A stretch of DNA of 64,000 bases, from positions 85,704 through 149,703 of the forward strand of contig SUUE01000001.1 of NCBI GenBank assembly GCA_015062685.1, read 5' to 3'. Position 1 is the first letter of the stretch. Each line of letters begins with the position of its first letter. Both the position numbers and the translations under genes were made by a program. Origin of the DNA: Coriobacteriaceae bacterium (lineage in GTDB: Bacteria > Actinomycetota > Coriobacteriia > Coriobacteriales > Eggerthellaceae). Below are positions 31,537-60,907 of the stretch, piece by piece. The notes under the pieces were generated by a model. It did not search any database, was not told where the DNA came from, and saw only the letters and a program-made list of their open reading frames with translations.

Positions 31537-33072
31537 CTATGTTGCCACGGAGCCGTCGGAACCGTTATCGAGACCGAAAGACGCCCATCGCCTGTCGATG
31601 CCGGCTTCCCTGTAGAATCTATCCTTCTCGGCATACATGCTCGCATCGGCCATATGCTCCAAATCGTCCACCGATGCGCCTGGGTTATCGGCGCGCGAAG
31701 CGTAACCGATAGCGAGCGTGACCTCGTCGGAATACACCCCGCTCCACTCTCCCGCCTTCCGCTGGATCTCATCTCGAACGCGCCAAGGCTCCCGCGTATG
31801 CACGATGGCCATGAACTCGTCGCCGCCGGTTCGATAGACCTTGCCGGCCTGTCCGATCGACAACACCATGCACTCCGCAGCTCCCTTGATCAGCTCGTCG
31901 CCGGCAGCATGCCCCTTGGTGTCGTTAACCACTTTCAAGCCGTTGACATCTATGGAGAACATGACGAGGTCGTCGTCCATCTCGCCTTCCCTGAGCTTGG
32001 CCAGGGCATCTACGAAGCTCCTGCGGTTGTAAAGCCTCGTGAGCTCGTCTGTCATGGACAGCCTGACAAGACGCTCCACGCGCTTCTTCTCGTCGTCCAC
32101 GTTTCGCGTCGTGTAGATAACGACGTCCGGCATTCCGTCGGCACCCTCTTCCACAGCGATGTACTGGGCTCGGAACCACCCCGACACCACGTCGATGAAA
32201 TCGGCGCTGATGACCTTCTTGTGCCTCATCCTTTCCCTGACGGTTGTTATGTTGGTGAACGCGAGGAAGTCTTCCAGATGGTCCGGCATGACGCGTTTCT
32301 TTATGCGCTGGTTCATGGCCGTGTGCGTCTGCCTCTGCATGTCGATGCCAAATTTCTGCTGGCTTGGATCGCGCAGCGAAACCTCCGTGTTGTCGACGAA
32401 GCTTATCAGGTTCACGTTGTCGTAGATCTCCGCCATCGATGCCAGGACGTGCATCTTCTCCTGCTCGTTCTCCTCCTTGTCTTCGATGATCGCCTGTTGC
32501 TGGAACAAGCCCTCGAAGTAATCACCCACTATCTTGACGGCAAGATACCCCGACACGGCCATGATGAGCGTCTCGATGGTGTACCCGCCGACGGTGTTGA
32601 AGAAGTACGCCTGCTCGGTACCGTAATGCGGATGAAGCCCGACGTAATACGAAGATGCCGCCCAGGTACACCCGAGCATAAACGCGTAGTTCATCGTTAG
32701 CGCGTAGAAATACAGGCGCTTGTCGCAATACAGAATGCTCAGGAACGGCACGAGGAACCAGGTGATATGAATGTTCACATGCCCCAACACCATGTAGACC
32801 ATGATGGCATCGAGCGCCGTGAGCGCGAACACGCTCGTAATGGGAGAATAGGGCTTGCACTTCACGAGGATGAGGTGCGCCCCTGACAATATTGTGACCA
32901 AAATCGATATGTTCAAACAGGTGAGGTAGTCGGTATGCGGGAAAATGCCCGCATACACGCCCAGGGCGATGGCCGGCCCCGTCGCGATGAACAACCAGAG
33001 GGCCGTATTGAGGTAGCGGTTGATCCGCGCCCTGTTCTGCAGGATGAAACCCTGGAAATCGATTGACGCCAT
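31537..33072 (-). CDS. Membrane diguanylate cyclase
   Basis: MTDELTRLYNRRSFVDAL...VYRTGGDEFMAIVHTRE; internal ATG at 33072 preceded by G-rich SD. Confidence 0.88.
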   Translation of the reverse strand: MASIDFQGFILQNRARINRYLNTALWLFIATGPAIALGVYAGIFPHTDYLTCLNISILVTILSGAHLILVKCKPYSPITSVFALTALDAIMVYMVLGHVNIHITWFLVPFLSILYCDKRLYFYALTMNYAFMLGCTWAASSYYVGLHPHYGTEQAYFFNTVGGYTIETLIMAVSGYLAVKIVGDYFEGLFQQQAIIEDKEENEQEKMHVLASMAEIYDNVNLISFVDNTEVSLRDPSQQKFGIDMQRQTHTAMNQRIKKRVMPDHLEDFLAFTNITTVRERMRHKKVISADFIDVVSGWFRAQYIAVEEGADGMPDVVIYTTRNVDDEKKRVERLVRLSMTDELTRLYNRRSFVDALAKLREGEMDDDLVMFSIDVNGLKVVNDTKGHAAGDELIKGAAECMVLSIGQAGKVYRTGGDEFMAIVHTREPWRVRDEIQRKAGEWSGVYSDEVTLAIGYASRADNPGASVDDLEHMADASMYAEKDRFYREAGIDRRWASFGLDNGSDGSVAT

Positions 33073-33184
33073 GACCGCCACCCCCTTCGCCATCGTGCTT
33101 CGCATGGAGCATGAGCTGCATGAGCACCGAGCGTCTGCAACGACCATTCTGACAGGAAAAAGGGCGATGGAGCCGTCCTGATAC

Positions 33185-35371
33185 CTATCTGTTTTCGAGC
33201 TGCTGGCGTTTCACGAGATCGGCGAACGCGCCGCCCTTTGAGACGAGCTCCTCATAGGTGCCCATCTCCACGATGCGGCCGCCGTCGAGCATAACAATGC
33301 GGTCGGCGAGCTTGATGGTGGACAGACGGTGGGCAACGACGATGCGCGTGCATTTGAGGCGGGTGAGCGAATCGCTCACATGCTTTTGCGTTACGTTGTC
33401 CAGGGCGCTCGTGGCCTCGTCGAACATGAGGACTCGCGGCTTCGAGCACACGGCGCGCGCGATGAGAATGCGCTGACGCTGACCGCCCGACACGCCGCCC
33501 GAACCCTCGGTGATGAGCGTATGCATGCCCATGGGCATATCGCGGATGTCGTCGGCGACGCCGGCAAGCTCAGCGGCTTCCCAAGCATCGTCCATCGTGG
33601 CACGGGGCGATGCCAGCACGATGTTGCTGAACAAGGTGCCCGCGAACAGCTTCCCGTTCTGCAAGCACACACCGATGACCCTGCGCAGGCTGCGCGTGTC
33701 CATGTCCGCGACGTCCTGCCCGCCGTAGTAGATAGCACCGCGCTCGGGCTTCTCGAATCCCATGAGGAGGCGCAGCAAGGTCGACTTGCCCGAGCCCGAC
33801 GTTCCCACGATCGCCAGGTACTCGCCCGATGTCACCTTGAGCGAAAGGTCCTCGAGAACCGGCTTCTGGGTGGGATCGTATCGGAACGTGACGCCCGCCA
33901 CCTCGATAGACCCCGAGAGACTTGTGATCTGCTTGCCATGCTTCGCGGATTCGGGCTGCTCCTCGAGGATGGGCTTGATGGCCTCGAGGTACGACTGCAC
34001 CTGCACCAGCCTGCCAGCGGTGCCAGCCAGCATGAGGATTGCGGCCGATATGGAGCCGTATGCCACGTTGAACGCCATGAAGTCGGCGAGCGAGACGCCG
34101 GCTGAACCCGCGAACCAGTAGATGAAGATTGTTCCAATCAGCGTGACGAGCGCGGGCAGCGTATCCGCCACCTTGAACCATAACGGCACATCGTATTGCG
34201 CGGCGAGGTAATTGGCTTCGGCGTCGGCCCAGCGCGCGAACGCGCGCTTCTCAGCACCGGACAGCTTCAGCTTGGAGATGCCGTTCAGCAGTGCCGGGAC
34301 CAAGCCTGAAACGACGAGGTCGGCATCGACGATCATGCGCTGCCTGCGCGCCTTCGCCTGCGTTATGAGCAAGCTGAGCACGACCTGCACGAGGATGATC
34401 GCGATTGCCGGCACGACGAGCGACGGGGTGTACGCCGCGATCTGCGCGATGTACACGAGCGAGAACAGGCTCGTGAGCGCCGTTCCCAGCAAGACGCCGG
34501 TAAGCATGGTCACGACGTTGCGGACCCTGCTGACGCGCTTCGCGAGATCGCCCGCTTGCCTGTCCTTGAAGAAAGACGGCGGCAGCGACAGGACGCGCGC
34601 CATGATGGCGGCTTCCATTTGCATGGAGAGCTTGCTCGACAATCGATCAGTGACGAGCACGCGCAAGATGCCTATGAGAGCGCTCGCTATCGTCACGCCC
34701 AAGAGCATCGCGCAAATGGGCACGATAAGCGCCATTTCGCCAGAAGGTATGATGCGGTCGAACAGCAGGCTGTTTGCCACGGGAGGAAGCAGCCCGACGA
34801 GAGCCACCGCGAGCGAGGCGATGGCGATACGCAGGTAATCGCCCGGATCGAGCGATGCGACCATGAACTGCATCAGGTCGCGCAACGAGAGCTTCTCCTC
34901 GGGGAGCGGCCTGTAGAAGCAATACGCCTCGGGCATGATGTTTGCGGCAGCCCGGGAGGTCAGCAGCACTTTCTTGTTGGTGACTGGATCGACGAAGCCG
35001 TAGCTGCGCAAGCCGAATGGGATAATCGCGACAGGCTCGCCCGTCGCTAGCTGGCCCAGATAGGCACCCGAGGCATCGGTCCACCAATTGCCCTCGAGCA
35101 CCACCTTGCGCTTCATCATGCCGCACGACCTGATCGCGTAGTCCATGCGGTCAGAGGGGTCGGTGACAGATTCAGGCACGGCCGCGGGCTTCTTCCCGAA
35201 ATAGCGCAGCAGGGTTTCCACGGCGCTATCGGTTGCAGCCACGTCATCGAACGACATGCGCGCCGTGCGCCTCGACCCCTCGACGGCGCGGGCAATGCGC
35301 TCGTAAGCCTCGGCGACCTGATCGTCGTCAAGGCGCTTGCGCATCTCCAGTTGTTCCTCAAACCAACTCAT
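33185..35371 (-). CDS. NHLM/NHLP-type bacteriocin export ABC transporter permease/ATPase (no peptidase)
   Basis: N-terminal regulatory-like region, TM domain, GTSGSGKSTLLRLLMGFEKPERG, SGGQRQRILIARAV. Confidence 0.87.
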   Translation of the reverse strand: MSWFEEQLEMRKRLDDDQVAEAYERIARAVEGSRRTARMSFDDVAATDSAVETLLRYFGKKPAAVPESVTDPSDRMDYAIRSCGMMKRKVVLEGNWWTDASGAYLGQLATGEPVAIIPFGLRSYGFVDPVTNKKVLLTSRAAANIMPEAYCFYRPLPEEKLSLRDLMQFMVASLDPGDYLRIAIASLAVALVGLLPPVANSLLFDRIIPSGEMALIVPICAMLLGVTIASALIGILRVLVTDRLSSKLSMQMEAAIMARVLSLPPSFFKDRQAGDLAKRVSRVRNVVTMLTGVLLGTALTSLFSLVYIAQIAAYTPSLVVPAIAIILVQVVLSLLITQAKARRQRMIVDADLVVSGLVPALLNGISKLKLSGAEKRAFARWADAEANYLAAQYDVPLWFKVADTLPALVTLIGTIFIYWFAGSAGVSLADFMAFNVAYGSISAAILMLAGTAGRLVQVQSYLEAIKPILEEQPESAKHGKQITSLSGSIEVAGVTFRYDPTQKPVLEDLSLKVTSGEYLAIVGTSGSGKSTLLRLLMGFEKPERGAIYYGGQDVADMDTRSLRRVIGVCLQNGKLFAGTLFSNIVLASPRATMDDAWEAAELAGVADDIRDMPMGMHTLITEGSGGVSGGQRQRILIARAVCSKPRVLMFDEATSALDNVTQKHVSDSLTRLKCTRIVVAHRLSTIKLADRIVMLDGGRIVEMGTYEELVSKGGAFADLVKRQQLENR

Positions 35372-35439
35372 GCCCTACCCGTCTTCTCCTGCTTCCCGCG
35401 AGCTCCGAGCCATTCCCGAAGCACGTTTCTGGTGTTCGT

Positions 35440-37641
35440 TTAATCGCTCCTCACGAGCTCGGCGTAAACCCCGTCGAGCGCCATTAGCTCCTCATGCGTG
35501 CCGCGCTCAGCCACGCGCCCGTGGTCGAGCACGATGATCTCGTCGCAATCTCGGATCGTCGAGAGCCTGTGCGCCACGACGATGCACGTAATCTCGCGCC
35601 TGCGAATTGCCTTGATGACCCTCTCCTCTGTCTTGGCGTCGAGGGCGCTCGTTGCCTCGTCCAAGATGGCGATGGTCGGGTCCTGGGCCAGCACGCGAGC
35701 GATCTCGAGGCGCTGCAGCTGACCGCCCGAGAAATTGCGCCCGCCTGGGAGCACGCGCCCATGGTAGCCGTCCTCGCGCGAGAGGATCTCGTCGTGGATG
35801 TCGGCATCGCGACACGCCATAATGACCTCGAAGTCCTCGATCGAGCCGTCCCACAATGCCACGTTTTCCCTAATGGTGCCGTCGAACATCGAGATGTCCT
35901 GGTCCACGACGGCAATAGACCCGCGTAACTGCTCGTGCGGGATGTCCCCGAGCAGCTTCCCATCGAAGCGGATCTCGCCTTCCCACGGCTTGTACAGGCC
36001 GCTTATGAGCTTGGCGATGGTCGACTTGCCCGAACCCGAACCGCCCACGAGGGCGATCCACTGACCGGGTTCCGCATGGAGGTCGAGTTCCGCGACGGTC
36101 GGCTTCTCGAGCCGCGAGTAGCCGAACGTCAGGCCCTTCACGTCGATGGCGCCCGAGAGCTTGTAGAGGCCCGTCTGCGGCACGTCGCCATCGCCCGCGT
36201 CGAGGGCTTCCGACGCCGCCTTCGATTCCAAGCCGGTCATGACGTCGGGCTCGTATTTGAGGACGTCCTGCACGCGCTCCATCTCCGTCCGCGCTTCCTG
36301 GATGGTCTGTCCCAAGTTCACGAGTGAATTCACTGGCGCCATGAACGCGGAGAGGAAGCCCTGGAAAGCGAGCAGCATGCCAGCCGTGAACTCGCCGTTC
36401 ATGATGAGCATCGTGCCCACCATGAGCACGGCAACGTTCGCCAGCTGCACGAGCAGCCCGGGCACCGCCCCGAGGTAGGCGTTCAGCTTCGCGAAACGCG
36501 ACATGCCATTGCTCACGAGCGCCTGCATGCCGCTCCACCGCTCGAAGAAGCCCTCCTCGGCGCCCGATGCCTTGATGGTCTCGACCATGTCGATGCCGGC
36601 AACCGTGGTTGCGCCCAGCCTGCCTGCGTCGCGCACCTGCTGCCGCATGATGTTCACGCGCTTGTTGGAGATGTAGCGTGCCAGGAACGCGTTCAGCACG
36701 ACCGTCCCCACGCCCACGAGCGCCAGGGGCACGCTGTAAACCAGCATGACGATCAGGTAGAGGATGATGAGGAGGCTGTTCAAGACCGCGGGCGCGAGCT
36801 GCTGCACTACGGTCATGGCGATCGTCTCGTTGGCAGCTTGCCGCTGCTGCAAGTCGCCCACGTGGCGCTGCGCGTAGAATTCCACGGGCAGGTGAAGCAG
36901 ATGCCAGAAGAACTGCGATGCTGCAACGGCTTCGAACTTGCCGCGTATCTTAAGCAGGTAAATAGCGTTCGCGAACGAGACGATGCATTGCACGAGGGCC
37001 ATTATGGCCAACGTCACCACGAGCAAGGTGAGCGCCGGGCCGTTGCTGCCCGCGTTGCCGAGAACAGCATCGGCGAACACGCGTGACATGGCCGAGTTGA
37101 CGATGCCGACAATGGACAGGATGGTCGTTGCCAGCGCCACGAACGCGATCGGCCCCGCCATGCCGCGCAACCGCTCGCGCACGAACTCAAGCGTGGAAGG
37201 CGGCTCGCCCGCGGGTTCGAAGTTATCGCCCGGATGCATGATGAGCGCGATGCCGGTGAACGATTCGTCGAACTGCTCGATGGGCACCCTCACCTGGCCA
37301 CGCGCCGGGTCGTTCAGATAGGCGAACTTCCCATTGTTGGAGAAGCCCGTGAGCACGACGAAGTGGCTGAAGTTCCAGAATATGATGCAGGGCAGCTCGG
37401 CATTCGCCTGCAACCCCTCAAGGTCGAACGTGTAGCCGTCGCATTCCATGCCATACGAGCGCGCCGCACGCATGATGTTGACCGCCTTGCTGCCATCGCG
37501 CGACACGCCGCACGCCGAACGCGCCTCCTCGAGCGGTATCCAGCGCCCGTAGTGCGCGAGGATCATGGTCAGGCAGGCGGCACCGCACTCGGTGGCCTCC
37601 ATCTGCATGACCTGGGGGACGTTTCGGATACGGCGGGCCAT
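35440..37641 (-). CDS. NHLM/NHLP-type peptidase-containing (C39) ABC exporter
   Basis: QMEATECGAACLTMILAHYGRWIPLEE C39 Cys motif, WNFSHFVVLTGF His, then ABC ATPase GGSGSGKSTIAKLISG. Confidence 0.92.
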   Translation of the reverse strand: MARRIRNVPQVMQMEATECGAACLTMILAHYGRWIPLEEARSACGVSRDGSKAVNIMRAARSYGMECDGYTFDLEGLQANAELPCIIFWNFSHFVVLTGFSNNGKFAYLNDPARGQVRVPIEQFDESFTGIALIMHPGDNFEPAGEPPSTLEFVRERLRGMAGPIAFVALATTILSIVGIVNSAMSRVFADAVLGNAGSNGPALTLLVVTLAIMALVQCIVSFANAIYLLKIRGKFEAVAASQFFWHLLHLPVEFYAQRHVGDLQQRQAANETIAMTVVQQLAPAVLNSLLIILYLIVMLVYSVPLALVGVGTVVLNAFLARYISNKRVNIMRQQVRDAGRLGATTVAGIDMVETIKASGAEEGFFERWSGMQALVSNGMSRFAKLNAYLGAVPGLLVQLANVAVLMVGTMLIMNGEFTAGMLLAFQGFLSAFMAPVNSLVNLGQTIQEARTEMERVQDVLKYEPDVMTGLESKAASEALDAGDGDVPQTGLYKLSGAIDVKGLTFGYSRLEKPTVAELDLHAEPGQWIALVGGSGSGKSTIAKLISGLYKPWEGEIRFDGKLLGDIPHEQLRGSIAVVDQDISMFDGTIRENVALWDGSIEDFEVIMACRDADIHDEILSREDGYHGRVLPGGRNFSGGQLQRLEIARVLAQDPTIAILDEATSALDAKTEERVIKAIRRREITCIVVAHRLSTIRDCDEIIVLDHGRVAERGTHEELMALDGVYAELVRSD

Positions 37642-37644
37642 AGA

Positions 37645-38181
37645 CTACTTCGCCCCACCGAAGAGGTATCCGAGCGGCGCCACTTCCTTCGTCGTTATCA
37701 CGACGGGCACGTCGTCGCCCTCTTCCCAAGAAGACAGTTCGTCCGGAAGCGCGATGACCACCTTGTAGCTCCATGCGACTGAACCCATTGACGCAGCGGC
37801 GTAGTCGCTGCTCAATGCCTCCGACACCTCGCGCTGCGAATACGGGCTGTCGTCCACGGAGACGATGCTCGCATCGCGGCCAGCGGCAGTGACCTTGCTA
37901 TCGGTCGTGGCAACCGCGTCCTTGCCCAAGGGCAGGAAGCAAACCACTTGCCCGTCCTTCACGACGCCCGTCGCTGTTTGCGATATGGGCAGGGAGGCCG
38001 TCATTCCCCATATGAGGCCGGCGATCACCAGCACCGTCACGGCACCGATGACGACCCAGGCCGATGGGTTCGTCACCTTGAGGTAGCGGTCGAGGTCATC
38101 GGCCGACGACATCTTGCTCAGCGCCGTCTCCCGGAACATCTGCGTGCCAAGGGTGCTTCGCTTTTCCGTTGATTCCGCCAC
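37645..38181 (-). CDS. Short NHLM-type HlyD-like secretion protein
   Basis: SSADDLDRYLKVTNPSAWVVIGAVTVLVIAGLIWGMTASLPISQTATGVVKDGQV; same strand, directly upstream of the two ABC genes. Confidence 0.82.
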   Translation of the reverse strand: MAESTEKRSTLGTQMFRETALSKMSSADDLDRYLKVTNPSAWVVIGAVTVLVIAGLIWGMTASLPISQTATGVVKDGQVVCFLPLGKDAVATTDSKVTAAGRDASIVSVDDSPYSQREVSEALSSDYAAASMGSVAWSYKVVIALPDELSSWEEGDDVPVVITTKEVAPLGYLFGGAK

Positions 38182-38469
38182 GGCAACCCTCTCCCGCCTC
38201 TTCGACCGGTATTATCTCGCGCTACGCCAAAACAGCAGATGATAGCGCGCAATGAAATAATAATACCTGAACGGCCCCTACGCTAACTAACATAACGTTT
38301 ACAATTTGAGTCTTGTTATCCTTCGGGCGGCGCGCCCATGGGCCGGCGAGCGATCGCGAAACAAATCGCTTACGACTCGCGTGACGCCTTCTGCCGACTC
38401 ATTTCCCGTATTACTATAGGCAGTAAGCGCGCCAATTTCAGCGCTAGCAGCCAACATATGGGGTGCCGC

Positions 38470-41109: not shown

Positions 41110-41124
41110 CGCTTCGCCGAACGC

Positions 41125-44314: not shown

Positions 44315-44554
44315 TTAGAAACGGGTGCCGCAACCGTCGCAAGCCCACAAGCCGGTGAACGAGTCCAGGTTCACATTGGAGCCGCCGCACACAGGGCAGG
44401 ACACAAGACCGCCCCAGCTGCCGCCCGAAATCGCTTCGATTTGCTCGTCGGAAAGCTCCACGCCCTCTTCCTCGGCAAGCCGCCTCAGGTCGTCGGCGTT
44501 CCTGCACGTACGCACTTTTTCCTGCTGCTTTAGCGTCAGTTCCTCAAACTTCAT
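44315..44554 (-). CDS. Candidate RiPP/bacteriocin-type precursor with Nif11/GG-type leader and CxxC...CxxC core
   Basis: MKFEELTLKQQEKVRTCRNADDLRRLAEEEGVELSDEQIEAISGG|SWGGLVSCPVCGGSNVNLDSFTGLWACDGCGTRF; GGGAGGGG SD before ATG 44554. Confidence 0.72.
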   Translation of the reverse strand: MKFEELTLKQQEKVRTCRNADDLRRLAEEEGVELSDEQIEAISGGSWGGLVSCPVCGGSNVNLDSFTGLWACDGCGTRF

Positions 44555-44754
44555 GATGACCCCTCCCGAAGCAGCGAAACACTTTTGGCTACAGCATACG
44601 TATCTTCCTATTTTAAGCGTCCAAGCTAACTGACGTCCCTTCAATACGCATGCGTTGACGTGCTGTAACGCTGTTTGCAGGTCGGCGCAAATGAGAGACG
44701 GGAAAATGCGCTTCGGGAGCTTTCGCATGCGCATTCTCGTGTAATATCGGGCAT

Positions 44755-46347
44755 ATGCGTAGGGGGAAGACATATCAACAAAGCTTCCGAATTCGGAAAG
44801 GCGATTTCGCAGGCGCGTATGCGTTTGCCAATGACCTGCTGACGCGCAAGGACGTAAGCAAGGAGACGGCGCATGAAACCCTCCTTGTTTTCGAGGCTCT
44901 CCTGCAAAAGCTCGTTGACTCGGGGGTGGACGAGAACACCGACCTGAGAATCTCCGGCATGGACAAGCTCGGCGACTTTCGCATCAAGATCATGTTCGAA
45001 GGGCCCATGTTCGTTCCCGACCACGATACGGCGGACTCCATCGAGGACCGCATCCTGAGCGGCTATGACGACAGGATCGACTGCAGCTACTATTCGGGCT
45101 GTAACACGATTACCATCTCGGTGAGCAGGAGGAACCGATCGCTGTTCTCCTGTGCCATCGCGTTTCTATGCGCAATCGTGGTGTACCTCCCGCTATCTTG
45201 TCTGCTCGACGCGGACGCACAGAAAGAGCTGCTCACGGACTACGTGTTCCCTGTCGAGAAGGTATACGCCAACGCCATGCTCATGATAGGCGCACCCATG
45301 ACGTTCTTCTCCCTGCTGAAGAACCTCACGAACACCTACGTCATGGCACAGATCAACTCTGGTCTGCGGCAGCTCCAAGCACGGACGCTCGCAACCTCCG
45401 CGGTCGCGATCATTCTGGCGTTCGCGGTGTTTCTCGTTTTTGTCATTCCGCTGTCCAGCATGGAGACGGGACTCTACGGCTCCGGTATCACCCACCTCGA
45501 GTACCTCAATACGTCGTTTTCCGAAGTCGTCGGCACAATCGTGACCCCTAGCATTTTCGAGCCCTTCGAGGCCGTCTCGCCCGTTCCGTTGATGGTCGTC
45601 GCCCTGCTTTGCACCTACGCCTTGTGCTCGGCCGGCAAGTACTTCGACCCCCTGAGGCATGCCATGATGGCCTGCTACACGCTCTTCTCCCGCATGCTGC
45701 ACGTCTCCATCGCCGCGCTCCCGTTCTTCTTCTTCCTCTCGATGCTGGACGTGCTGCTCGAGGACGGTCTGATTGTCATCATCGAACTCTTCGGCTACTT
45801 CGTGGCCGCTTCACTGGGCGTCTTGCTGCTATTCGGCACCTACGCCATCAGGCTGCGCGCCCACGACATCAAGATCATCCCCTTCGTGCGGAACATCATC
45901 CCCCTTCTCCGCGAGAACCTTAGAATCGGGTCGGTCATCAACGCTGCGCCGTACAACACCAGGTACTGCGCGAAGAACATGAAGATGAGCAGAAGCATGC
46001 TCGAACGCAACCTCCCGCTGCTCGCTGAAATCAACCTCGACGGCAACTGCTTCGTGCTCATGTTTTTCGCGCTGGCCATCTCCTTCGTCATGGGCAAGTA
46101 CCTGACGTGGGTGAACATCGTCGGCCTGGGGCTGCTCGTGCTGCTCCTCTCGCTCGGCGCGCCGAACCAGCCGGGCAGCATCTTGATCGGCATGCTGATT
46201 CTCACCACCTACCTGAACTCAAGTAACGCGCTGTGCACGGCCATCTACCTGGAGGCGTTCTTCGGCAGCACGCAGAACCTCATCAACGTCATCGGCGACA
46301 TTGTCATGGTAGCCATCGAGGACAAGAAGGAGAAAGCCCTCGCTTAA
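44755..46347 (+). CDS. SDF-family dicarboxylate/amino acid:cation symporter with N-terminal HATPase-like domain (paralog 1)
   Basis: C-terminal NLDGNCFVLMF, GAPNQPGSILIGMLILT, TQNLINVIGDIVMVAI; about 125-aa soluble N-terminal extension. Confidence 0.8.
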   Translation: MRRGKTYQQSFRIRKGDFAGAYAFANDLLTRKDVSKETAHETLLVFEALLQKLVDSGVDENTDLRISGMDKLGDFRIKIMFEGPMFVPDHDTADSIEDRILSGYDDRIDCSYYSGCNTITISVSRRNRSLFSCAIAFLCAIVVYLPLSCLLDADAQKELLTDYVFPVEKVYANAMLMIGAPMTFFSLLKNLTNTYVMAQINSGLRQLQARTLATSAVAIILAFAVFLVFVIPLSSMETGLYGSGITHLEYLNTSFSEVVGTIVTPSIFEPFEAVSPVPLMVVALLCTYALCSAGKYFDPLRHAMMACYTLFSRMLHVSIAALPFFFFLSMLDVLLEDGLIVIIELFGYFVAASLGVLLLFGTYAIRLRAHDIKIIPFVRNIIPLLRENLRIGSVINAAPYNTRYCAKNMKMSRSMLERNLPLLAEINLDGNCFVLMFFALAISFVMGKYLTWVNIVGLGLLVLLLSLGAPNQPGSILIGMLILTTYLNSSNALCTAIYLEAFFGSTQNLINVIGDIVMVAIEDKKEKALA

Positions 46348-51116: not shown

Positions 51117-51355
51117 GCGCGCGCCACCCAGCTCTCACGGGCCGGTATGTAAACGGTTGCTAAACCATAGGCGTATCGCTACCAGGTCAGCTCGGCCGAC
51201 TACGCCTAACAGCGGCCCCCGCGCTAATAATCAACAACATCGAAACGCGCTACCAGCGCAGCCAGTTGCGGTTGCCATGATGCATTATGTTCAATGCGCA
51301 CATGTTGGAGGTTTACGCCCGCACCTCCTATACTGAGCATGTCAGGAGGAGCCGC

Positions 51356-53950
51356 ATGGCAGAAGCGGAGAAAACAACATCCAGGATAGCTTCCCTGTTC
51401 TGGGGGCGCGTGGCCCCCCTGAGCCTTCGAATCCGTATCGTGGCGCCGGTGTTCGCGATGGCCGTTATCGTGGCGCTCTCGTTCTGCCAGCTGGGCTTCT
51501 GGCCCATTGGCGAAGTGGCGGGGCGAGCGGTCTACATCATGCTGATATTGGTCCCTCCCGTCGTGGGCGCCCTTCTGTTCGGACCGGTCACGGGCGCATT
51601 GCTTGGGTTGTTCGCGGGCGCGATGGCGTTCACGCACGCGCAAATGATGCCGCTCGACTTCTACGAGAACAACGTCATGACGCCGATGAACACGTTCGGA
51701 ATGCTCACGCTGATGGGCCTTCTCTCCGGCTTGCTGTTCAAATTCGCCTTGCGCAACGACCCGAGGGGCGGCAAGCGCACGGGCATTATCGTAGGCGCCT
51801 GCATTGCCCTATCGGCCGTGGCAAGCGGCTTCATCATGGTGAGCATGACAGCCCAGTTCGGCGGCCAAAAGCTTTCGGCAATCATGGAGTACCTGCTCAT
51901 GACCCCGGAGGGCATGATCTCCCAAATGACCGTCGACGCGGTGGCGCTCATCGCCCTATGCCTCGTGGTGGACGCGATGCTCCTCTCGCTGACCACGCGC
52001 AACCCGAGCGAACGCAAGCTGCTCACCGTGTTCAGCGGCTGGATGATCACCATTTCCGCTATCGTGTTCATGCTTGCGAGCGCGTTCATCTTCACGACGA
52101 TCACCATCCAGGAGGACGAGAAGACGAGCGAAACGATGATGAGCGAAGCCCAGTACCTCGCCGGCCAGCTGGATGCGCACCCGGATTCCGACCCCTCCAC
52201 GGTGCTCGATGGCTACTCCATGGAGGACTACGGCAACGTCGTCGTCACGGACAAGCTCTACACCATCCTTGGAACCAACAATGAAGAGCGGTTCCCCGTG
52301 GGCGATTCGTTCGTGGACGACATTGGCTATGCCGAGGCGTTCCCCAACCCGGAAGACCCCTCGAGCAACCTGCTGCAGTTCATCGTCGACAGCGACGAGA
52401 CCTCCCAGATCCAAACGTACACGGCTGAAGGCACCTGGACCATGGAGTTCTCCTATATATCGGTAGCGGCATGCGAAAAGGGGTACGTGGCGGAAGTTCG
52501 CACCACGGAAATGGTCTTCCCATCAAGGTTCAGCACGCTGGCCTCGACGACGCTGCTTGCGTTCCTGCTGATCTTCGCCACGGCACTCGTGGCATCGTGG
52601 CTCTTGAGGTCCGACATCGCGAAGCACATCGACGAGACGAACGCGTCGCTGAAGAAGATCACTGACGGCAACCTGGACGAGCGCGTGTCCGTGCGCGACA
52701 GCAGCGAGTTCGCATCGCTATCCGCCGGCATCAACGCGACGGTGGCGACGCTCAAGGAAACGATCGAGGAAGTGGAGCAGAAGAACGCGCAGGAGCTGCT
52801 CACCGCGAAGGCCATCCAGCAAAGCGCGCTCCCCTCCTCCGAGCCGACTTTCCTGGGCATCGACGCGTTTGACCTGTATGCTTCGATGGATGCGGCACGC
52901 CAGGTGGGCGGCGATTTCTACGACTACTTCGACCTGGGCGGCGGGCGCATCGGCTTCGTGGTGGCCGACGTCAGCGGCAAGGGCATACCCGCGGCGCTGT
53001 TCATGATGGCGGCCAAGACGGAGATCCGCGCAGCAATGGAAACGAACGCGGACCTTGCGGAGGCCATCGGCATCGCCAACCGGAACCTGTGCGAGGGCAA
53101 CGAGGCCGAGATGTTCGTCACCGTGTTCGCCGGCGTGCTCGAATACGAAACCGGCAAGCTGACCTACGTGAACGCCGGACACAACAAGCCCCTCGTGATG
53201 CGCGGCGGCGAATGGTCCTGGCTCACCGAGCGGTCGGGCCCCTACATGGGCTCGTTCGATTGGATCGAGTACAAGCAGTTCGAGACGCAACTGCAACAGG
53301 GCGACGAGCTATTCGCCTACACCGACGGCGTGAACGAGGCGTTCAACGCGGAAGGCGAGCTCTACGGCAACGACCGGCTGGAGGCCTTCCTGTCGACGCA
53401 CGGCGAGCTGCACCCGCGACGGCTTCTGCGCGCCCTGCGCGCCGAGCTCGGCGGCTGGTCGTTCGGCATCGAGCAGTCAGACGACATCACCATGCTCGCG
53501 CTCATGTTCGGCATACCGCCCGAGCACGGCGCCTCGCTGACGACGACGGCTGAGCTCGAGAACTTCGAGGAAGTCGAAAGCTTCGTCCTGAAGAAGCTCG
53601 ACGAGGCCGGCTGCCCGTCGAAAGAGGCCAACCACGTGATGATCGCGGTCGAGGAGCTGGTCGTGAACGTATGCAGCTACGCATACCCCGACGCCACCCC
53701 GAGCGACCCCGGGCTGCTGTACACGCACATTACGCTGCAGACGCGGCCGAACGCCGTCATCGTCGAGATCAGCGATACCGGCGTGGCGTTCAACCCGCTC
53801 GAACAGGAAGACCCCGAACGCCCCGCAAGCGTCGAGGATGCAAAGATCGGGGGCCTCGGCCTGTTCATGACCAAGAAGCTCATGGACAAGGTGGAATACG
53901 TGCGCGAAGGCCTGACGAACACCACCACCGTCACGAAATACTGGGAATAG
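51356..53950 (+). CDS. Membrane SpoIIE-type PP2C phosphatase fused to RsbW-type HATPase (paralog 2)
   Basis: RQVGGDFYDYF, VVADVSGKGIPAALFM, AYTDGVNEAFN, SDDITMLAL; IAVEELVVNVCSYAYPD, SDTGVAFNPL, GGLGLF; AGGAGGA SD. Confidence 0.9.
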   Translation: MAEAEKTTSRIASLFWGRVAPLSLRIRIVAPVFAMAVIVALSFCQLGFWPIGEVAGRAVYIMLILVPPVVGALLFGPVTGALLGLFAGAMAFTHAQMMPLDFYENNVMTPMNTFGMLTLMGLLSGLLFKFALRNDPRGGKRTGIIVGACIALSAVASGFIMVSMTAQFGGQKLSAIMEYLLMTPEGMISQMTVDAVALIALCLVVDAMLLSLTTRNPSERKLLTVFSGWMITISAIVFMLASAFIFTTITIQEDEKTSETMMSEAQYLAGQLDAHPDSDPSTVLDGYSMEDYGNVVVTDKLYTILGTNNEERFPVGDSFVDDIGYAEAFPNPEDPSSNLLQFIVDSDETSQIQTYTAEGTWTMEFSYISVAACEKGYVAEVRTTEMVFPSRFSTLASTTLLAFLLIFATALVASWLLRSDIAKHIDETNASLKKITDGNLDERVSVRDSSEFASLSAGINATVATLKETIEEVEQKNAQELLTAKAIQQSALPSSEPTFLGIDAFDLYASMDAARQVGGDFYDYFDLGGGRIGFVVADVSGKGIPAALFMMAAKTEIRAAMETNADLAEAIGIANRNLCEGNEAEMFVTVFAGVLEYETGKLTYVNAGHNKPLVMRGGEWSWLTERSGPYMGSFDWIEYKQFETQLQQGDELFAYTDGVNEAFNAEGELYGNDRLEAFLSTHGELHPRRLLRALRAELGGWSFGIEQSDDITMLALMFGIPPEHGASLTTTAELENFEEVESFVLKKLDEAGCPSKEANHVMIAVEELVVNVCSYAYPDATPSDPGLLYTHITLQTRPNAVIVEISDTGVAFNPLEQEDPERPASVEDAKIGGLGLFMTKKLMDKVEYVREGLTNTTTVTKYWE

Positions 53951-54003
53951 CCCACAACGCCGCCGTGGCGGCCCATCTCGGGAACGACCCTAGCCGCTTT
54001 ATA

Positions 54004-54306
54004 CTAGCGCTCGATTTCGAGGATGTCGACGAGGCCGGTGACGTCGAAGACCTCCATGACCTCGTCGTTGGGGTTCGTTATACGCATCGAGCCGCCCTTG
54101 CGCTGCATGCTCTTCGCCTGCGAAACAACCACGCGCAAGCCCGCCGAAGCCACGTAATCGAGGTTGGACAAGTCCAAGACGAGGTCGCTCGCATCACCGG
54201 GAAGGGCCGCGAAAGCCGCTTCGAGCTTGGGAGCCGTTACAACCGTGAGGTTTCCGACGATGGCTATGGTCGCGTTTGCGCCGTCGATTGTCGTGTTAAT
54301 CTCCAC
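54004..54306 (-). CDS. STAS-domain anti-sigma factor antagonist-like protein
   Basis: LVLDLSNLDYVASAGLRVVVSQAKSMQRKGGSMRITNPNDEVMEVFDVTGLVDILEI. Confidence 0.9.
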   Translation of the reverse strand: MEINTTIDGANATIAIVGNLTVVTAPKLEAAFAALPGDASDLVLDLSNLDYVASAGLRVVVSQAKSMQRKGGSMRITNPNDEVMEVFDVTGLVDILEIER

Positions 54307-54424
54307 CTTGTATTCCCTCCACCCGGGTTCATGCTGGCTTTAGGTTGATGCCATTGTACCTCAAGCATATTACGCGCGTAACGGCTCCCTCACGGCGCCC
54401 GATCGGTGAAGCCGGCACGCCGCC

Positions 54425-55609
54425 TCAGCGGCTTGCGAGAGCGATCCCGTTAACGTATTCGCGCTGAATGGCGAACAGGCGCACGACGAGCTCCGAGAAG
54501 CCGGAGGGCAGGCTCCCGTTGGACGCGTATGCCTCCACGATGCGACCCTCGAAACCGTCGAGCGCGCGCGGGTCGTACCAAGACCAATCCCACGACGACC
54601 GCAAGTACGAGAAGTGATGCATGCAGAGCAACTCTGCGAGAAAGGGCTTCTCGCAGAAAGCCGAGATCTGGCCTTCAGCGAACGGGAAACCGAATGAACC
54701 GTCGTAATCGAAGATGGGCGCAGGGCGCCAAACGTCCGAACCGACCTTGCGTATGGCGCCGAAGTTTCCCGCATGGAAGTCCGCGAGAAGCGACAGACAC
54801 GAGCAGCACGCCATCCTGGCAACGTGCGCGGAGGCGTCCTTTATCCCCATGGCATCATAGGCGCTGATGCGCACGTCGCATAGCTCGGGCGAGATTCGCC
54901 CGCCGCCTTTCGCCAGAATGCCCGTCACCATGGATATCCAGTCCCCATCGACGAGCTCCTCATCGTGCGCCAGCATGAGCGGGGTGGCCGAGCAGAGCCG
55001 GCCGCACCGCTCCACGATGCTCACGGGCACGTAGCAGCCCTCGGCGAACAGCATCGCGCTCATATCAGATGCGAGCTTTATGCCCTTGAGCTCGGCGCCG
55101 TCGTAACGCTCGGACACCTTGACGAGGAGGATTCCGTCATCGCTCCGCTCCCATGTCTTGACCGCGTGGCCGCGCGTCGTGGCGTCGGGCACGTCGGGAG
55201 AGCAAGACGCGAGACGGGCGTAGTCCTCCTCGAAGACAGCCGCCCCGAAAGCAGGGTCCCACTCGTTGTCGAAGAAGTTGACGCCCTCCCAGCGTTCCGC
55301 CGAGCCGGGCGCGCGATACCAGTATTGATCGGAAAGCGACAGGCCATGCCCCATGAGAGCGAGGTCGACGGCCGACTTCGCGCCGAAAGCCCCAAGGATG
55401 CTTTCCAAGTCCGGGCGCATGGCCGAAATGGCACGGGAGCCCACCAGCTTGCCGAGGAGCCAGCCCTCGTCCCGCTGGACGGCGTCGGCGCAAGCGAGGA
55501 GATCCTCGCCCGCTTCGGACAAATCCACGATGCGCACCTCGCCCGTCGTGGGCTCAATCTCGAAGTCGACCAACTCCTGGTTGCGTCGCATGAGCGTGCG
55601 TCTGACCAA
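54425..55609 (-). CDS. HipA-like kinase-fold protein
   Basis: ILLVKVSERYDGAELKG...LLADFHAGNFGAIRKVGSDVWRPAPIFDYDGSFGFPF resembles HipA catalytic DxHxxNxG and metal-binding D; no HipB-type HTH gene beside it. Confidence 0.65.
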   Translation of the reverse strand: MVRRTLMRRNQELVDFEIEPTTGEVRIVDLSEAGEDLLACADAVQRDEGWLLGKLVGSRAISAMRPDLESILGAFGAKSAVDLALMGHGLSLSDQYWYRAPGSAERWEGVNFFDNEWDPAFGAAVFEEDYARLASCSPDVPDATTRGHAVKTWERSDDGILLVKVSERYDGAELKGIKLASDMSAMLFAEGCYVPVSIVERCGRLCSATPLMLAHDEELVDGDWISMVTGILAKGGGRISPELCDVRISAYDAMGIKDASAHVARMACCSCLSLLADFHAGNFGAIRKVGSDVWRPAPIFDYDGSFGFPFAEGQISAFCEKPFLAELLCMHHFSYLRSSWDWSWYDPRALDGFEGRIVEAYASNGSLPSGFSELVVRLFAIQREYVNGIALASR

Positions 55610-55689
55610 TGTGCTCCCCTTCTTGTTAGATGCGCATGAGTTTCCAAGCGTCCCCTAACCCCATTTTACGCATCCGCGCTCCCCCGGGC

Positions 55690-55878
55690 CTAGACGAAGT
55701 AACCGTCGTACGGCTCGATAGTCGGAGTCCTGTCGGAAGGTTTCACATAGTAATTCTTGGGGTTAACGCCGCCGGCTACTTCCTCGAGCGTCTCGTCGGT
55801 AACCTCCCGCACGTCATCCACCGTCTTCTCGGTCGTCTCCTTGGACACCGGAACCCTGCCTTTTTCCTCGCGCTCCAT
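55690..55878 (-). CDS. Candidate double-glycine-leader peptide precursor
   Basis: MEREEKGRVPVSKETTEKTVDDVREVTDETLEEVAGG|VNPKNYYVKPSDRTPTIEPYDGYFV. Confidence 0.65.
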   Translation of the reverse strand: MEREEKGRVPVSKETTEKTVDDVREVTDETLEEVAGGVNPKNYYVKPSDRTPTIEPYDGYFV

Positions 55879-56097
55879 AGCCCTTCCTTCCTCGCCGTTT
55901 GCCGCTGCATCTCTATACGCACTAAAGGCGTCATCGTTTCAGCGCCTTTTATCCTACGCAGTTAAACGCTCACTTGGACGCAACGCCGCCTCGTGTTCGA
56001 GACGGAATTCTAACTATAATGAGTTTAAGGAAGTGAACCGCGATAGCGCGCCGCTGCGCTTCCGTCATCCTAAGCAGCCATGCAAAGGAGATACCCG

Positions 56098-57381
56098 ATG
56101 GACGACATGCCCAGCTCAAATGAAGCAGCAGTCGATTACTCCCTGCTCGAAAAGGTAAACCCGGTGTTTCTCACCGCGAAGATGACGCTTTTCCAGCTTG
56201 CAGCCAATGGAGACCCCGATGCGGCCGCGCTCGCAGAGAGCATGGGCCTGACACTGGAGGAAACTCAGAACAGCGCGAACACCACCACCACGCCCGAGCA
56301 AGTCCTCGGTGGCACCATCATGCTCGAAGCCCGTTATCGCACGATGGCGAGCCTGGCGGAAAGCTCTGGTTACACGCTAGTCGACCTGCCATGCGGCTAC
56401 ACCCCGCGAGCGATTACGTTCGCGAAGAAGGGGCTTCCCTATTACGGGCTGGATCTCCCCGTAGTGATTCGTGAGATCTCGAGCCAGGTGAATGCGATGG
56501 TTTCACCCGAGGAGCGCGAGTTCATCCACTACAAGGAAGTAGATGCAACGAACTACGCCTCGCTCGAAAAGGCGGTGAGCGACATCGACGGCGAAGTCTG
56601 CATAAACACCGAGGGACTGCTCATGTACTTCACCGATTCCGAAGCCGGGGCGCTCTGCAACAACATCCGCCGTATCCTGAAAATGAAGGGTGGCTGCTGG
56701 TACGTGGCTGATCCGGAATCCTCCCTTCAATACATCGCCACCATGCGCGCGCTGGTGGGAGACCGCTTCCTTCAGATCATGCAAAACGCCAAGCAGCAGA
56801 CGAAGGATAAATCTGACGTGGAAATTGGCAAGAACTCCCTGATGGCGAGCCCGGCCGACATAGAAGGCACCACCAAGCGCGCCATGGCCTTCCTCGCCGA
56901 GCACGGCTTGAAGAGGGAGCGCGTCATCGTGGCGGAGCACCTGCCGGAACTGGATTCGCTTTCCAAGATCAGCCCGGAGCAAGCCAACGCCATACGGGAG
57001 GGAATGAGCAGCTGCGCCTACTGGAAGGTCACGCTCGACGAAACCGCACCCACCGTCGAGCTTCCCTCATCCGAGGCGAAGAACTTCACCTTGAACGGCG
57101 CGATACAGAACGGCACCCTGTCCCTCAACTTGTCAGGGCGGCTTGACACCATTTCCGCGCCCACCCTGCTCACCTTCTTCGAGAAGGTCGAGAAAGAGCA
57201 CTCGGTTGAATCCGTCTTGGTGGATTGCAGCAATCTCGAATACGTCTCCTCTGCGGGCCTGCGCGTTCTCGCGATCATGCGCAGGGCTTGCGCAGGGGGC
57301 GTGACGCTCGCCAACTCCAACGAGTTCGTCGCAGACGTCATTGAGCAGACCGGCTTCGGCGCCGTGCTAACGATCGTGTAA
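56098..57381 (+). CDS. SAM-dependent (leucine carboxyl methyltransferase-like) methyltransferase fused to C-terminal STAS domain
   Basis: N-terminal class I MTase with EARYRTMASLAESSGYTLVDLPCGYTPRAITFAKKGLPYYGLDLP; C-terminal LSGRLDTISAPTLLTFF...VLVDCSNLEYVSSAGLRVLAIMRRA. Confidence 0.82.
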   Translation: MDDMPSSNEAAVDYSLLEKVNPVFLTAKMTLFQLAANGDPDAAALAESMGLTLEETQNSANTTTTPEQVLGGTIMLEARYRTMASLAESSGYTLVDLPCGYTPRAITFAKKGLPYYGLDLPVVIREISSQVNAMVSPEEREFIHYKEVDATNYASLEKAVSDIDGEVCINTEGLLMYFTDSEAGALCNNIRRILKMKGGCWYVADPESSLQYIATMRALVGDRFLQIMQNAKQQTKDKSDVEIGKNSLMASPADIEGTTKRAMAFLAEHGLKRERVIVAEHLPELDSLSKISPEQANAIREGMSSCAYWKVTLDETAPTVELPSSEAKNFTLNGAIQNGTLSLNLSGRLDTISAPTLLTFFEKVEKEHSVESVLVDCSNLEYVSSAGLRVLAIMRRACAGGVTLANSNEFVADVIEQTGFGAVLTIV

Positions 57382-57496
57382 TTCGAATCGACAGCCGATT
57401 ACATTCGCGGCCATCGCACGAAGCCTCAGGGCAATGCCCACCTGGAGTTCATGAGGCCCGATCAGCGCTTGCTCGGAGTCGAGTCGGCAAAATCGC

Positions 57497-57683
57497 CTTT
57501 CGTGGCAGGATATGCAGCTAGTCTGAAGCCCAAACAATCAGACTAGCGGCATATCCTGCCAAATGCTTTCAGACTAGCGCGATATCCTGACAAAGCCGTT
57601 CAGACTAACGTCGTATCCTGCCACGAAAGCCCGTAATCGCGGATGGAACCCGCCGTTTTTCAGACTAGCGCGAGATCCTGCCA
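57497..57683. repeat. Iterated 23-bp repeat (four direct copies, one inverted)
   Basis: CAGACTAGCGNNRTATCCTGCCA at 57539, 57570, 57601, 57661; inverted at 57503-57525. Confidence 0.92.
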
Positions 57684-57931
57684 CGGATGGATGAATAGTT
57701 CAGACACTTTGATTCATTGGGGGCCGCAAACCTGACGGCAGCTGCTTCGCATGCTCTTCGCGATCGCTTCCTCACCTGTTCAGCTCCTAAACATGCGGCA
57801 TTCGCCTTGACCGGAACGCGGGGGTGACATTTTGGAACCCCTTTTGTACGGGCTGTAGGTGGCACTATAGAATGAAATGCAACCCATCCGGCAATCACAG
57901 GGGCCGGCATTACGGAAGGTTGGTGGCTGCA

Positions 57932-58834
57932 ATGAGCCAGAAACAGCGTTCGCTCATGATGCGCGGCATGGGAACGTTTGCCGCCGTTCTCGTAGTATTG
58001 CTGGCTCTGGGAACGTTCTACGATTACCCGCTAGCGCAGGCGATTTACACGCCCGATAACACCCTGGTAATCTTTTTCTCGAGCCTTGGCCTCCTCGCCA
58101 TGGCCTATCCCGCCCTCCTTCTCCTGGGCGTGCTTGCCCAGCGCAGCCTCGCCAGCCAAAAAACGAGCCTCCTGCGCATCGCGGGCGCCATTCTGTGCGT
58201 CGTTCTTGCGCTTCTCTTCGGCGCCCTCGTCACGAAGGCGGTGCTCTCGATACGCGATGGCTTCGGCGGCATGTTCGGGGTCGAGCCTCCCGAGACGCTG
58301 CGCCTCGGCATCGGCGCGGTGATCGGTGCGGGCCTCTGCGCAATGGGCTTTCATGCCGGCAAGGCGAACGACGCCAAGGATCTGGCGCGCAACGTGCTCA
58401 TGGTCGTCGTGGCGCTGCTTGCCTCGTATGCGCTGATAGAGATCGTGAAGAGCTCCATGGCGCGCCCGCGTCCGCGCCTGCTGTTTGCGGGATACGAGGG
58501 CATCGAGTTTTGCCCCTGGTATCAGCGGTATTCAGGAGCCGAGGGGTTCATGGGCGCCTACGGTATCGAAAAGGACGCCTTCAAGTCGTTCCCCAGCGGC
58601 CACTCGGCGCAGGCAGCCGCCCTCCTCACCGCGTTCTACGGGCTGAGCTTCGTCTACCCCCAGCTGCGCAAGAAGCTGGGGCTCGTCCTTGTGATCCAGA
58701 TCATCTTCGCCTTAGTCGTCATGTCTTGCCGCATGATCCTGGGCGCTCACTTCTTGAGCGACGTCAGCATGGGAGCGCTCGTGAGCGTCATCACGTTCCT
58801 TATCCTGATGGCCTCATGCAACGCCCGCGCCTGA
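57932..58834 (+). CDS. PAP2-family membrane phosphatase
   Basis: KSSMARPRPRLLF, FKSFPSGHSAQAAAL, MILGAHFLSDVSMGA phosphatase motifs. Confidence 0.92.
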   Translation: MSQKQRSLMMRGMGTFAAVLVVLLALGTFYDYPLAQAIYTPDNTLVIFFSSLGLLAMAYPALLLLGVLAQRSLASQKTSLLRIAGAILCVVLALLFGALVTKAVLSIRDGFGGMFGVEPPETLRLGIGAVIGAGLCAMGFHAGKANDAKDLARNVLMVVVALLASYALIEIVKSSMARPRPRLLFAGYEGIEFCPWYQRYSGAEGFMGAYGIEKDAFKSFPSGHSAQAAALLTAFYGLSFVYPQLRKKLGLVLVIQIIFALVVMSCRMILGAHFLSDVSMGALVSVITFLILMASCNARA

Positions 58835-58888
58835 AGGCGTCGTTGACGGCATGAGCCAACAATGGTCACGACGCGAAGGAGTCGCTCC

Positions 58889-60907
58889 ATGCTCTTTTCC
58901 GAGATGCTAGACCGCGGGCAAGGCAGCGCCACTGCCATCGTCGATTCGCAGGGGCTTGTCACGTACGGCGGTTTTCGCGCCGCCGTGGCCGGGTTCGCCG
59001 CGCACCTGCACGACATGGGCCTCGCCAAGGGCGACCGCGTGGCGCTCTGGGGATACAATTCGGCGAACTGGCTCGTAGCCTTCTTCGCCATCGTGCGCGC
59101 GGGTGGCGTGGCGCTGCTCCTTAACTACAGCATGGGCATCGACGATGCGGCCGAGCTGCTAAGGTCAGCGAACGCGCGCTTCCTCGTCTGCGGCGACAAC
59201 GGCCAGACCAAGCGCCGCGACGATGCAATCGAGGCGCTCGCCGAAGCCGCGGGCATCGAGCTTTCACACTGCGTGGACGCAAGGAGCGATTCCCGCGACC
59301 TCGCGGACGCCTACGCGGGAGCAGAGAGCCTCGCCGAGCAGCGCCAGCCAACCGAAGAAGCCGACACCGCGTTCATCATCTTCACGAGCGGTACGACATC
59401 GTCCCCCAAAGCCGTGTGCATCTCCCAGCGAGCCCTCGCCGCCGACGCGCAGGCCCTCATGGCGGGCCTCGAGGGAACGATGGGCGGCTCCATCTGCGTC
59501 GCGGTGCCACTCTTCCACATCCTTGGCCTGCTCACCAGCTTCGCCTACCTCACGCTGGGATCCACGGTGTGCCTGCCCGCAAGCTACCGGGCCGACGCAC
59601 TCATCACGATGGTGGGCGAAAACCAGGTGAGCGACATGGCCGCGGTGGGAGCCGTATACCAGGGCCTTGCAAGCGCCGACGGATTCGGGGAAATGGTCGC
59701 GCCCCATTTGCGAACATGCCTCATCGCAGGCGGCATGTCCACTCCGGTGCAGATGATGCGCCTCGAGCTGGATTTCACGAACGCCACCTTCATCAACATG
59801 TACGGCCAGAGCGAAGGCGCGCCCCTCACCATGGTACGGCCATCCGACCTCGTAGAGCTGCGCGCGAGCACGGTCGGGCGCGCCGTCGACGGCGTCGAGC
59901 TGCGCATCGCGGGCCTAGACGGCTCGCCGCTGCCGAATGGCGAAGTGGGCGAAGTCTTGGCCCGCGGCGTTTGCCTCATGAACGGCTACGAGGGGCTGCC
60001 CGCAGACGCCCAGGCCATCGACGCGGGCGGTTGGCTTCACACGGGGGACCTGGGCTTTCTTGACCCTGCGGGATACCTGCACCTTGCCGGGCGCATCAAG
60101 GACGTCATCATCCGCGGCGGCGAGAACATCTCCCCTGCCGAGATCGAGGCGGAGCTCACCACCATCGAGGGCGTGTCAGACGCGAAGGTCATGGGCGCGC
60201 CGCACGCCATCTACGGCGAGAGCGTTGAGGCCTGCGTGACCACACATGGCGCGGCGGCGTTTGACGAGGGACACGCGCTCGAGGTCCTTCGCTCGCGCAT
60301 GCCCCGCTACAAAGTTCCCGCGCACGTCTTCCCCTATAGCGAATTTCCACTCAACGTAAACGGGAAGCTCGACCAGCGCGCGCTCTACATTGACATGCTG
60401 GGGAGGCTTCTCGAAATCGAGGTGGACGAGGAGCTCGCGAGCGGCATCACGGTGTTCGAGATTACCGTCAAGAACTCCAGCTACGCCATCGGGCCGGTGG
60501 CCGCGCTCGTGGACGAGCTGGCTGCCTCCATCGGGTACGGGCGCCGCCGGGCCTCTAGAATCCGGCTCGCGGTCGAGGAGATGCTCATCGAGCGCATCAT
60601 GTATGCCTACTCGGGCGCGGGCGACATCCGCGTGCGCGTTTCGCTCATGCCGGAATGGCTTCGCGTGTCCTTCAGCGACGACGGCGCCGAGTACATAATC
60701 GACAAGCGCAGGGACAAGTCCACGAGCGCTCGCATCATCCTAGGCTCTGTTGACAACTTCCACACGGAGAGGCACGAGGGCAAACCCGAGTACTGCATGG
60801 ACTTCCTCTACGACGGCGACCTGGATGTGAAGGGGTTCCTGAAGCGCAATAAGGAGAACGTCGAGAAATGGGAGGACTTCGGCGGGGCTCTGGAGTCACT
60901 GCCGTAG
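58889..60907 (+). CDS. AMP-binding (acyl/aryl-CoA ligase-like) enzyme with C-terminal HATPase-like domain
   Basis: IIFTSGTTSSPKAV, LHTGDLGFLDPAGYLHLAGRIKDVIIRGGENISPAEIE; C-terminal RIRLAVEEMLIERIMYAYSG...SFSDDGAEYIID; AAGGAG SD. Confidence 0.87.
   Translation: MLFSEMLDRGQGSATAIVDSQGLVTYGGFRAAVAGFAAHLHDMGLAKGDRVALWGYNSANWLVAFFAIVRAGGVALLLNYSMGIDDAAELLRSANARFLVCGDNGQTKRRDDAIEALAEAAGIELSHCVDARSDSRDLADAYAGAESLAEQRQPTEEADTAFIIFTSGTTSSPKAVCISQRALAADAQALMAGLEGTMGGSICVAVPLFHILGLLTSFAYLTLGSTVCLPASYRADALITMVGENQVSDMAAVGAVYQGLASADGFGEMVAPHLRTCLIAGGMSTPVQMMRLELDFTNATFINMYGQSEGAPLTMVRPSDLVELRASTVGRAVDGVELRIAGLDGSPLPNGEVGEVLARGVCLMNGYEGLPADAQAIDAGGWLHTGDLGFLDPAGYLHLAGRIKDVIIRGGENISPAEIEAELTTIEGVSDAKVMGAPHAIYGESVEACVTTHGAAAFDEGHALEVLRSRMPRYKVPAHVFPYSEFPLNVNGKLDQRALYIDMLGRLLEIEVDEELASGITVFEITVKNSSYAIGPVAALVDELAASIGYGRRRASRIRLAVEEMLIERIMYAYSGAGDIRVRVSLMPEWLRVSFSDDGAEYIIDKRRDKSTSARIILGSVDNFHTERHEGKPEYCMDFLYDGDLDVKGFLKRNKENVEKWEDFGGALESLP

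Follow-up and report, generated by a model that had tools for sequence, protein, structure and literature searches.

Kinases of the HipA fold are known as toxins, in the case of HipA, or as a proinflammatory kinase, in the case of CtkA. The window studied here, the whole 64,000-nucleotide stretch of a Coriobacteriaceae genome that was analysed, encodes a kinase that resembles HipA and the CtkA of Helicobacter pylori in its fold, in the catalytic D-x-H/N-x-G-N loop, and in the metal-binding Asp. It differs from HipBA and CtkA in having no HipB, in a HipA_C match below the cut-off, and in an identity of only 10–15%. The clade to which it belongs differs from them also in its genetic partners, namely peptides with double-glycine leaders, exporters, and enzymes of RiPP biosynthesis.

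Kinases that act on RiPP precursors have been described before. PadeK and ThcoK are stand-alone kinases that phosphorylate lasso precursors (PMC9266682). These enzymes and PsmK resemble the window kinase in being encoded by a stand-alone gene beside a precursor gene, but they modify the C-terminal Ser of the lasso precursor, and their leader and exporter differ from those of the window system. LxmK and RosK are kinase-fold enzymes that act on Ser/Thr of the precursor, and RosX is a kinase-fold cyclase whose catalytic residues were lost (PMC12141560, PMC12291118). The class V enzymes LxmK and RosK are of the aminoglycoside-phosphotransferase type and occur with a HopA1-like lyase, whereas the window kinase has the HipA fold. 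A class V split dehydratase was considered and rejected, the HopA1-like lyase (PF17914) being absent from ten clade-related genomes at E 0.01. The clade of the window kinase also keeps the catalytic residues that RosX has lost.

The Nif11/NHLP systems (PMC2887384) share with the loci of this clade the Nif11-type double-glycine leaders and the NHLP ABC1/ABC2/HlyD exporters, although the window peptide itself has no Nif11 match. In Haft 2010 a large Ser/Thr kinase is noted next to NHLP precursors of Burkholderia, and we found no HipA-type kinase described there (PMC2887384). MppC, which prenylates Trp in a Nif11-led lanthipeptide precursor (PMC12715784), is comparable to the NETW loci presented below, where the precursor is also Nif11-led and Trp prenylation may occur. 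It differs in that one prenyltransferase and no kinase are mentioned in that system (PMC12715784), and the window locus has no adjacent prenyltransferase. In a search that covered few subscription journals, we found no literature joining HipA with Nif11 or lanthipeptides, a result that does not by itself establish novelty.

The peptide-kinase pair of the window

The window comes from a contig of 350 kb in a 2.5-Mb genome, and the named relatives are uncultured Coriobacteriales, many of them from rumen and gut. A 62-aa peptide ORF with a double-glycine leader (55690-55878 (-), ATG start, GGAAGGAAGGG upstream) lies 80 bp upstream, on the same strand, of a HipA/CtkA-fold protein kinase of 394 aa (54425-55609 (-), TTG start), which has its own Shine-Dalgarno sequence upstream (AGAAGGGGAG). 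The original prediction had described this peptide and its leader, and we recovered both at this position with the sequence it quoted. The leader ends in VTDETLEEVAGG, is followed by the core VNPKNYYVKPSDRTPTIEPYDGYFV, and agrees with the double-glycine rule (V at -12, L at -7, V at -4, G at -2 and -1). The start site is uncertain because of an internal GTG at codon 11, an alternative start that would leave a 27-residue leader (MSKETTEKTVDDVREVTDETLEEVAGG). The codon-position GC of the ORF (0.59/0.37/0.76) is like that of the neighbouring genes, as in a real gene. Of 354 short ORFs of the window tested with the strict GG-leader pattern, one matches, which is this peptide, for a chance level of 0.23 matches per random 64-kb sequence; the count alone is weak evidence, and the case is carried by the comparative evidence.

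Conservation of the peptide itself was not found: a search of 140 genomes of the family revealed no homologue by sequence. It has no NCBIfam match to the Nif11-type leader model (TIGR03798) at E 0.01, and only its C-terminal double-glycine segment resembles such a leader.

The assignment of the kinase relies on structure and on key residues. The Pfam profile HipA_C gives a sub-threshold match (12.8 bits for a cut-off of 30.5), the HipA N-terminal domain gives no hit, other Pfam kinase families do not match, and a sequence search of solved structures with the kinase profile returns CtkA alone, and weakly. The AlphaFold2 model (pLDDT 87) matches in Foldseek HipA (4pu5, E 7.7e-8) and CtkA (3akj, E 3.5e-6), LxmKY being a weak fold match (E 0.035). 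Three residues, K164, N282, and D301, do not vary among 22 clade members, and a fourth, D277, is kept in 21, with E in the remaining one (L111); HipA_C matches just four of the 22 at all, with a best E of 0.014. An N-terminal extension, considered as a feature that might separate the clade from kinases outside it, is found in only some of the latter.

The pair is flanked on the kinase side by a STAS protein (54004-54306 (-)) and on the peptide side by a divergent STAS-domain protein (56080-57381 (+)). No helix-turn-helix family is found among these flanking genes, in line with the earlier statement that a HipB antitoxin is missing. Neither a prenyltransferase nor a LanM adjoins the pair in the window, the signals for promoters and terminators around it do not exceed those of shuffled sequences, and PADLOC gives no convincing match to a defence system.

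The window also encodes an NHLP exporter, 17 kb from the pair, in the order HlyD-ABC1-ABC2-GGDEF (38181-31537) and without a kinase there. Its ABC1 subunit, which carries a C39 peptidase and is the candidate leader-cleaving exporter (35440..37641 (-)), and its ABC2 subunit (33185..35371 (-)) pass the curated cut-offs (TIGR03796, 910.6 bits for 853.3; TIGR03797, 721.3 for 709.4), whereas the short HlyD-like protein of 178 aa (37645..38181 (-)) fails (TIGR03794, 33.5 for 156.2). The GGDEF protein (31537..33147 (-)) ends the operon, a gene order also seen at locus L117, where clade kinases follow. The genome encodes five ABC1 genes above the cut-off, and thus has candidate exporters that match the C39 cleavage put forward earlier as a check. 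Within the family, an ABC1 that passes the curated cut-off is present in all eight genomes with a clade kinase (in one of which the kinase is a fragment), for 18 of the 132 others, a count inflated because the genomes sharing both genes are related.

The exporter and the pair are surrounded by a dense cluster (31537-42894 and 51287-60907) of genes for SpoIIE phosphatases, STAS proteins, GGDEF proteins, and HATPase_c_2 fusions, the latter to MatE and to an AMP-binding enzyme. A second double-glycine, Nif11-like peptide, with a zinc-ribbon-like core, is encoded at 44315-44554 (-), inside a longer ORF (44315-44773). Such CxxC...CxxC cores (e.g., GGSWGGLVSCPVCGGSNVNLDSFTGLWACDGCGTRF) are found in several double-glycine/Nif11 peptides, including this one and those of L091, L095, L099, and L114.

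A kinase clade accompanied by double-glycine peptides

We collected homologues of the kinase from the 140 family genomes and from a scan of GTDB representatives. Close homologues (45–66% identity) were found in Coriobacteriales only, and distant ones (~33% or less) are many, in Coriobacteriales and in other phyla; those in the plasmid collection are all distant (~25%). In the maximum-likelihood tree the 25 close sequences form one clade (support 100/100, long stem of 1.85), in which the window kinase pairs with that of L099 (97/92).

Of the 21 testable clade loci, i.e., those with enough upstream sequence, 12 have a same-strand double-glycine peptide no more than 320 bp upstream of the kinase, and outside the clade none of 54 has one (Fisher p = 1.1e-8, indicative only, since the clade loci are from different species but share common ancestry). 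The density of such peptides in the clade's own flanks would lead one to expect ~0.005 per kinase. The window was not counted and is a further case. Two more loci stand outside the 12: the NETW copy upstream of the kinase in L103 has a broken frame, and in L117 it is the second kinase that a Nif11 peptide closely precedes. Kinases outside the clade have no common partner and no double-glycine peptide. The pairing that had been predicted from the window is therefore a conserved property of the clade. It is not a universal one: a minority of clade kinases (L101, L112, L116, L119, L059) have no adjacent peptide, which in part bears out the objection, raised with the prediction, that the kinase might be conserved without it. 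Peptide presence inside the clade does not delimit a clean subclade, and some absences are contig edges.

Ten of the 12 upstream peptides belong to one precursor family, which we call NETW and which combines a Nif11 leader with a core of ten residues, xW[YI]xC[ML]NETW. The core has one invariant Thr, two invariant Trp, and one invariant Cys, and Thr9 is its sole invariant hydroxyl residue. Full-length copies number 13 in 399 genomes of the order and are spread over four families; one lies at the very end of its contig (G355), and 10 of the 12 evaluable copies precede a clade kinase with a gap of 25–295 bp, the two others (G120 and G143) having no kinase. Other peptides beside clade kinases are diverse. 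At L099, whose kinase is the closest, the partner is a Nif11 peptide of another kind with a zinc-ribbon-like core. At L108 and L114, peptides of the zinc-ribbon-like type flank the kinase on its opposite side, and L115, L117, and L122 have cores containing W and Cys. The core of the window peptide shares nothing with that of NETW beyond hydroxyl-bearing residues. What is conserved is thus the place next to the kinase and the type of leader, not the core, which suggests that the clade kinase either recognises the leader or acts for a wide range of cores.

Several clade kinases are found in wider clusters. In seven of ten NETW loci, paralogous proteins of ~332 and ~350 aa are encoded upstream of the precursor. 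They match no Pfam or NCBIfam profile, and the model of the 332-aa type (pLDDT 91) matches ABBA-type aromatic/indole prenyltransferases. This predicted fold, together with the two invariant Trp, suggests, with MppC as a precedent, that Trp may be prenylated in NETW loci. The NETW-kinase pair is also found without prenyltransferases nearby (L106 and L114). Near NETW, L100 has a LanM with its own Cys-rich precursor, and L102 and L107 have LanM-like ends. Radical-SAM/SPASM maturases are encoded beside clade kinases in L103, L117, and L122, the latter related to TIGR04463 but below its cut-off. An NHLP ABC1-ABC2 lies directly upstream of the clade kinase of L116, and L117 presents the array ABC1-ABC2-GGDEF-kinase-rSAM-Nif11-kinase. 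The genome of the window has two kinase remnants, one that closely follows a Nif11 peptide (C31) and one (C22:47.9-49.3 kb) beside a protein that resembles, by eye, the rSAM maturase of L122.

Relatives of the ABBA-fold proteins occur in other contexts too. One contig (L210:632-5494) has four of them, grouped around a pair of Nif11 peptides whose cores contain Trp (1771-2351), with an rSAM-like gene and no kinase. The genome of the window has two (G000:C2:17253-18239 and G000:C31:68371-69342), the C2 copy being ~2 kb from an NHLP ABC1.

Possible functions of the kinase

The pairing with the peptide, its recurrence across the clade, the presence of the exporter, and the intact kinase motifs are observed directly in the sequences. 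We think that the kinase is probably a RiPP-tailoring enzyme acting on double-glycine precursors. This reading draws on the biased distribution of the peptides (12/21 vs 0/54), on the fully supported clade, on the 10 of 12 NETW copies that precede a kinase, on the NHLP exporter arrays of L116 and L117 and the kinase remnants near a Nif11 peptide or a maturase-like protein, on the persistence of the NETW-kinase pair without prenyltransferases, on the retained catalytic residues and the ABC1 genes in all eight clade-kinase genomes, and on the fact that kinases of RiPP precursors are established (PadeK/ThcoK, LxmK/RosK). Counted against it are the clade kinases without an adjacent peptide and the NETW copies without a kinase in G120 and G143; by analogy with RosX, kinase-fold proteins in RiPP clusters can also be non-kinases. 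Furthermore, a single shared chemistry is hard to name because the peptide of the window is one of a kind, with a core unlike that of NETW.

We infer the substrate, the chemistry, the modified residue, the export, and the biological role along the following lines. The short ORF would encode a precursor whose leader ends in Gly-Gly, and the kinase would modify it in the cytosol with ATP, most likely by O-phosphorylation of a Ser, Thr, or Tyr of the core. An NHLP exporter with a C39 peptidase, either that encoded 17 kb from the pair or one encoded elsewhere in the genome, would cut after Gly-Gly and then secrete the modified peptide. In NETW, phosphorylation might be the final mark or a step towards elimination and cyclisation between Cys5 and Thr9. 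More tentatively, a HipA-lineage kinase may have been recruited in rumen and gut Coriobacteriales as a general, leader-guided RiPP-tailoring enzyme. Its main form, which would act with paired ABBA prenyltransferases on the ten-residue NETW core, might yield a secreted decapeptide, phosphorylated or cyclised following phosphorylation and possibly prenylated on Trp, with a role as signal or bacteriocin; we regard this full scenario as possible rather than probable.

A kinase that is accessory to the peptide, phosphorylating a host target or a regulator upon production or sensing of the peptide (self-immunity or regulation), would fit the conservation of the kinase in the face of very diverse partner cores. 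In the window, the STAS-domain genes on both sides of the pair and the SpoIIE-type phosphatases nearby make up a partner-switching environment, which points the same way. However, a cluster of such neighbours is not seen again next to the kinase at other clade loci, and the clade kinase is found inside arrays with biosynthetic enzymes and exporters, twice in the array of L117, which makes an accessory role rather unlikely. Even less credible is a kinase that helps another enzyme of the cluster, e.g., by supplying the prenyl diphosphate donor of the paired ABBA prenyltransferases or by providing the kinase component of a split dehydratase. The former idea accounts for the paired ABBA-fold enzymes upstream of most NETW genes and the latter has a precedent in LxmK/LxmY, but the NETW-kinase pairs of L106 and L114 lack nearby prenyltransferases, the four prenyltransferase relatives of L210 accompany Nif11 peptides on a contig without kinase, the HipA fold is a protein-kinase fold, and the ten clade-related genomes have no HopA1-type lyase.

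Finally, the HipA/CtkA fold, and the proximity of some related kinases outside the clade to genes common to mobile elements, would be expected of an orphan HipA-type toxin lying beside an unrelated small ORF. Given the lack of HipB, of a hit to the HipA N-terminal domain, and of a HipA_C score reaching the cut-off, and given a recurrent RiPP context specific to this kinase clade, we consider such a toxin very improbable. The original prediction had also set aside a toxin-antitoxin module, and our results agree, since two tested features of HipBA (HipB and the HipA_C cut-off) are missing. The alternative it offered, a peptide-modifying kinase or a kinase/peptide signalling pair, points in the right broad direction, with modification and signalling both presumptive and with a conserved element that is not the peptide itself. 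If the RiPP-tailoring reading is true, a clade integrated into the making and export of peptides would give the HipA fold a new function and RiPPs a new type of kinase, one unrecognised until now that would modify secreted bacterial peptides. The NETW family, a compact and conserved candidate substrate, makes the idea directly testable.

RiPP genes at the site of the pair in related genomes

Homologues of the divergent STAS-domain protein (56080-57381) are found in three relatives of the same genus, where RiPP genes of other kinds are found in the neighbouring stretch. G120 has an NHLP exporter there, and G117 has a LanM-type precursor with an apparent LanM start and an rSAM. The peptide-kinase pair therefore seems to occupy a spot that swaps RiPP modules. 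The genome of the window itself has about a dozen scattered Nif11-like peptides (12 places), most without an evident adjoining maturase.

A paralogue of the translation initiation factor IF-1 with a double-glycine leader (MSENELSSNVELDLDELDAVAGG; Pfam eIF-1a, E 5.7e-22) was not found in the window's own genome at E 1e-25, and is present in G117, G118, and G120 (L232:5961-6248 (-), L233:3945-4244 (+), and L239:508-789 (-)). In G117 and G118 it adjoins the homologue of 56080-57381, and in G117 it stands beside the LanM-type precursor.
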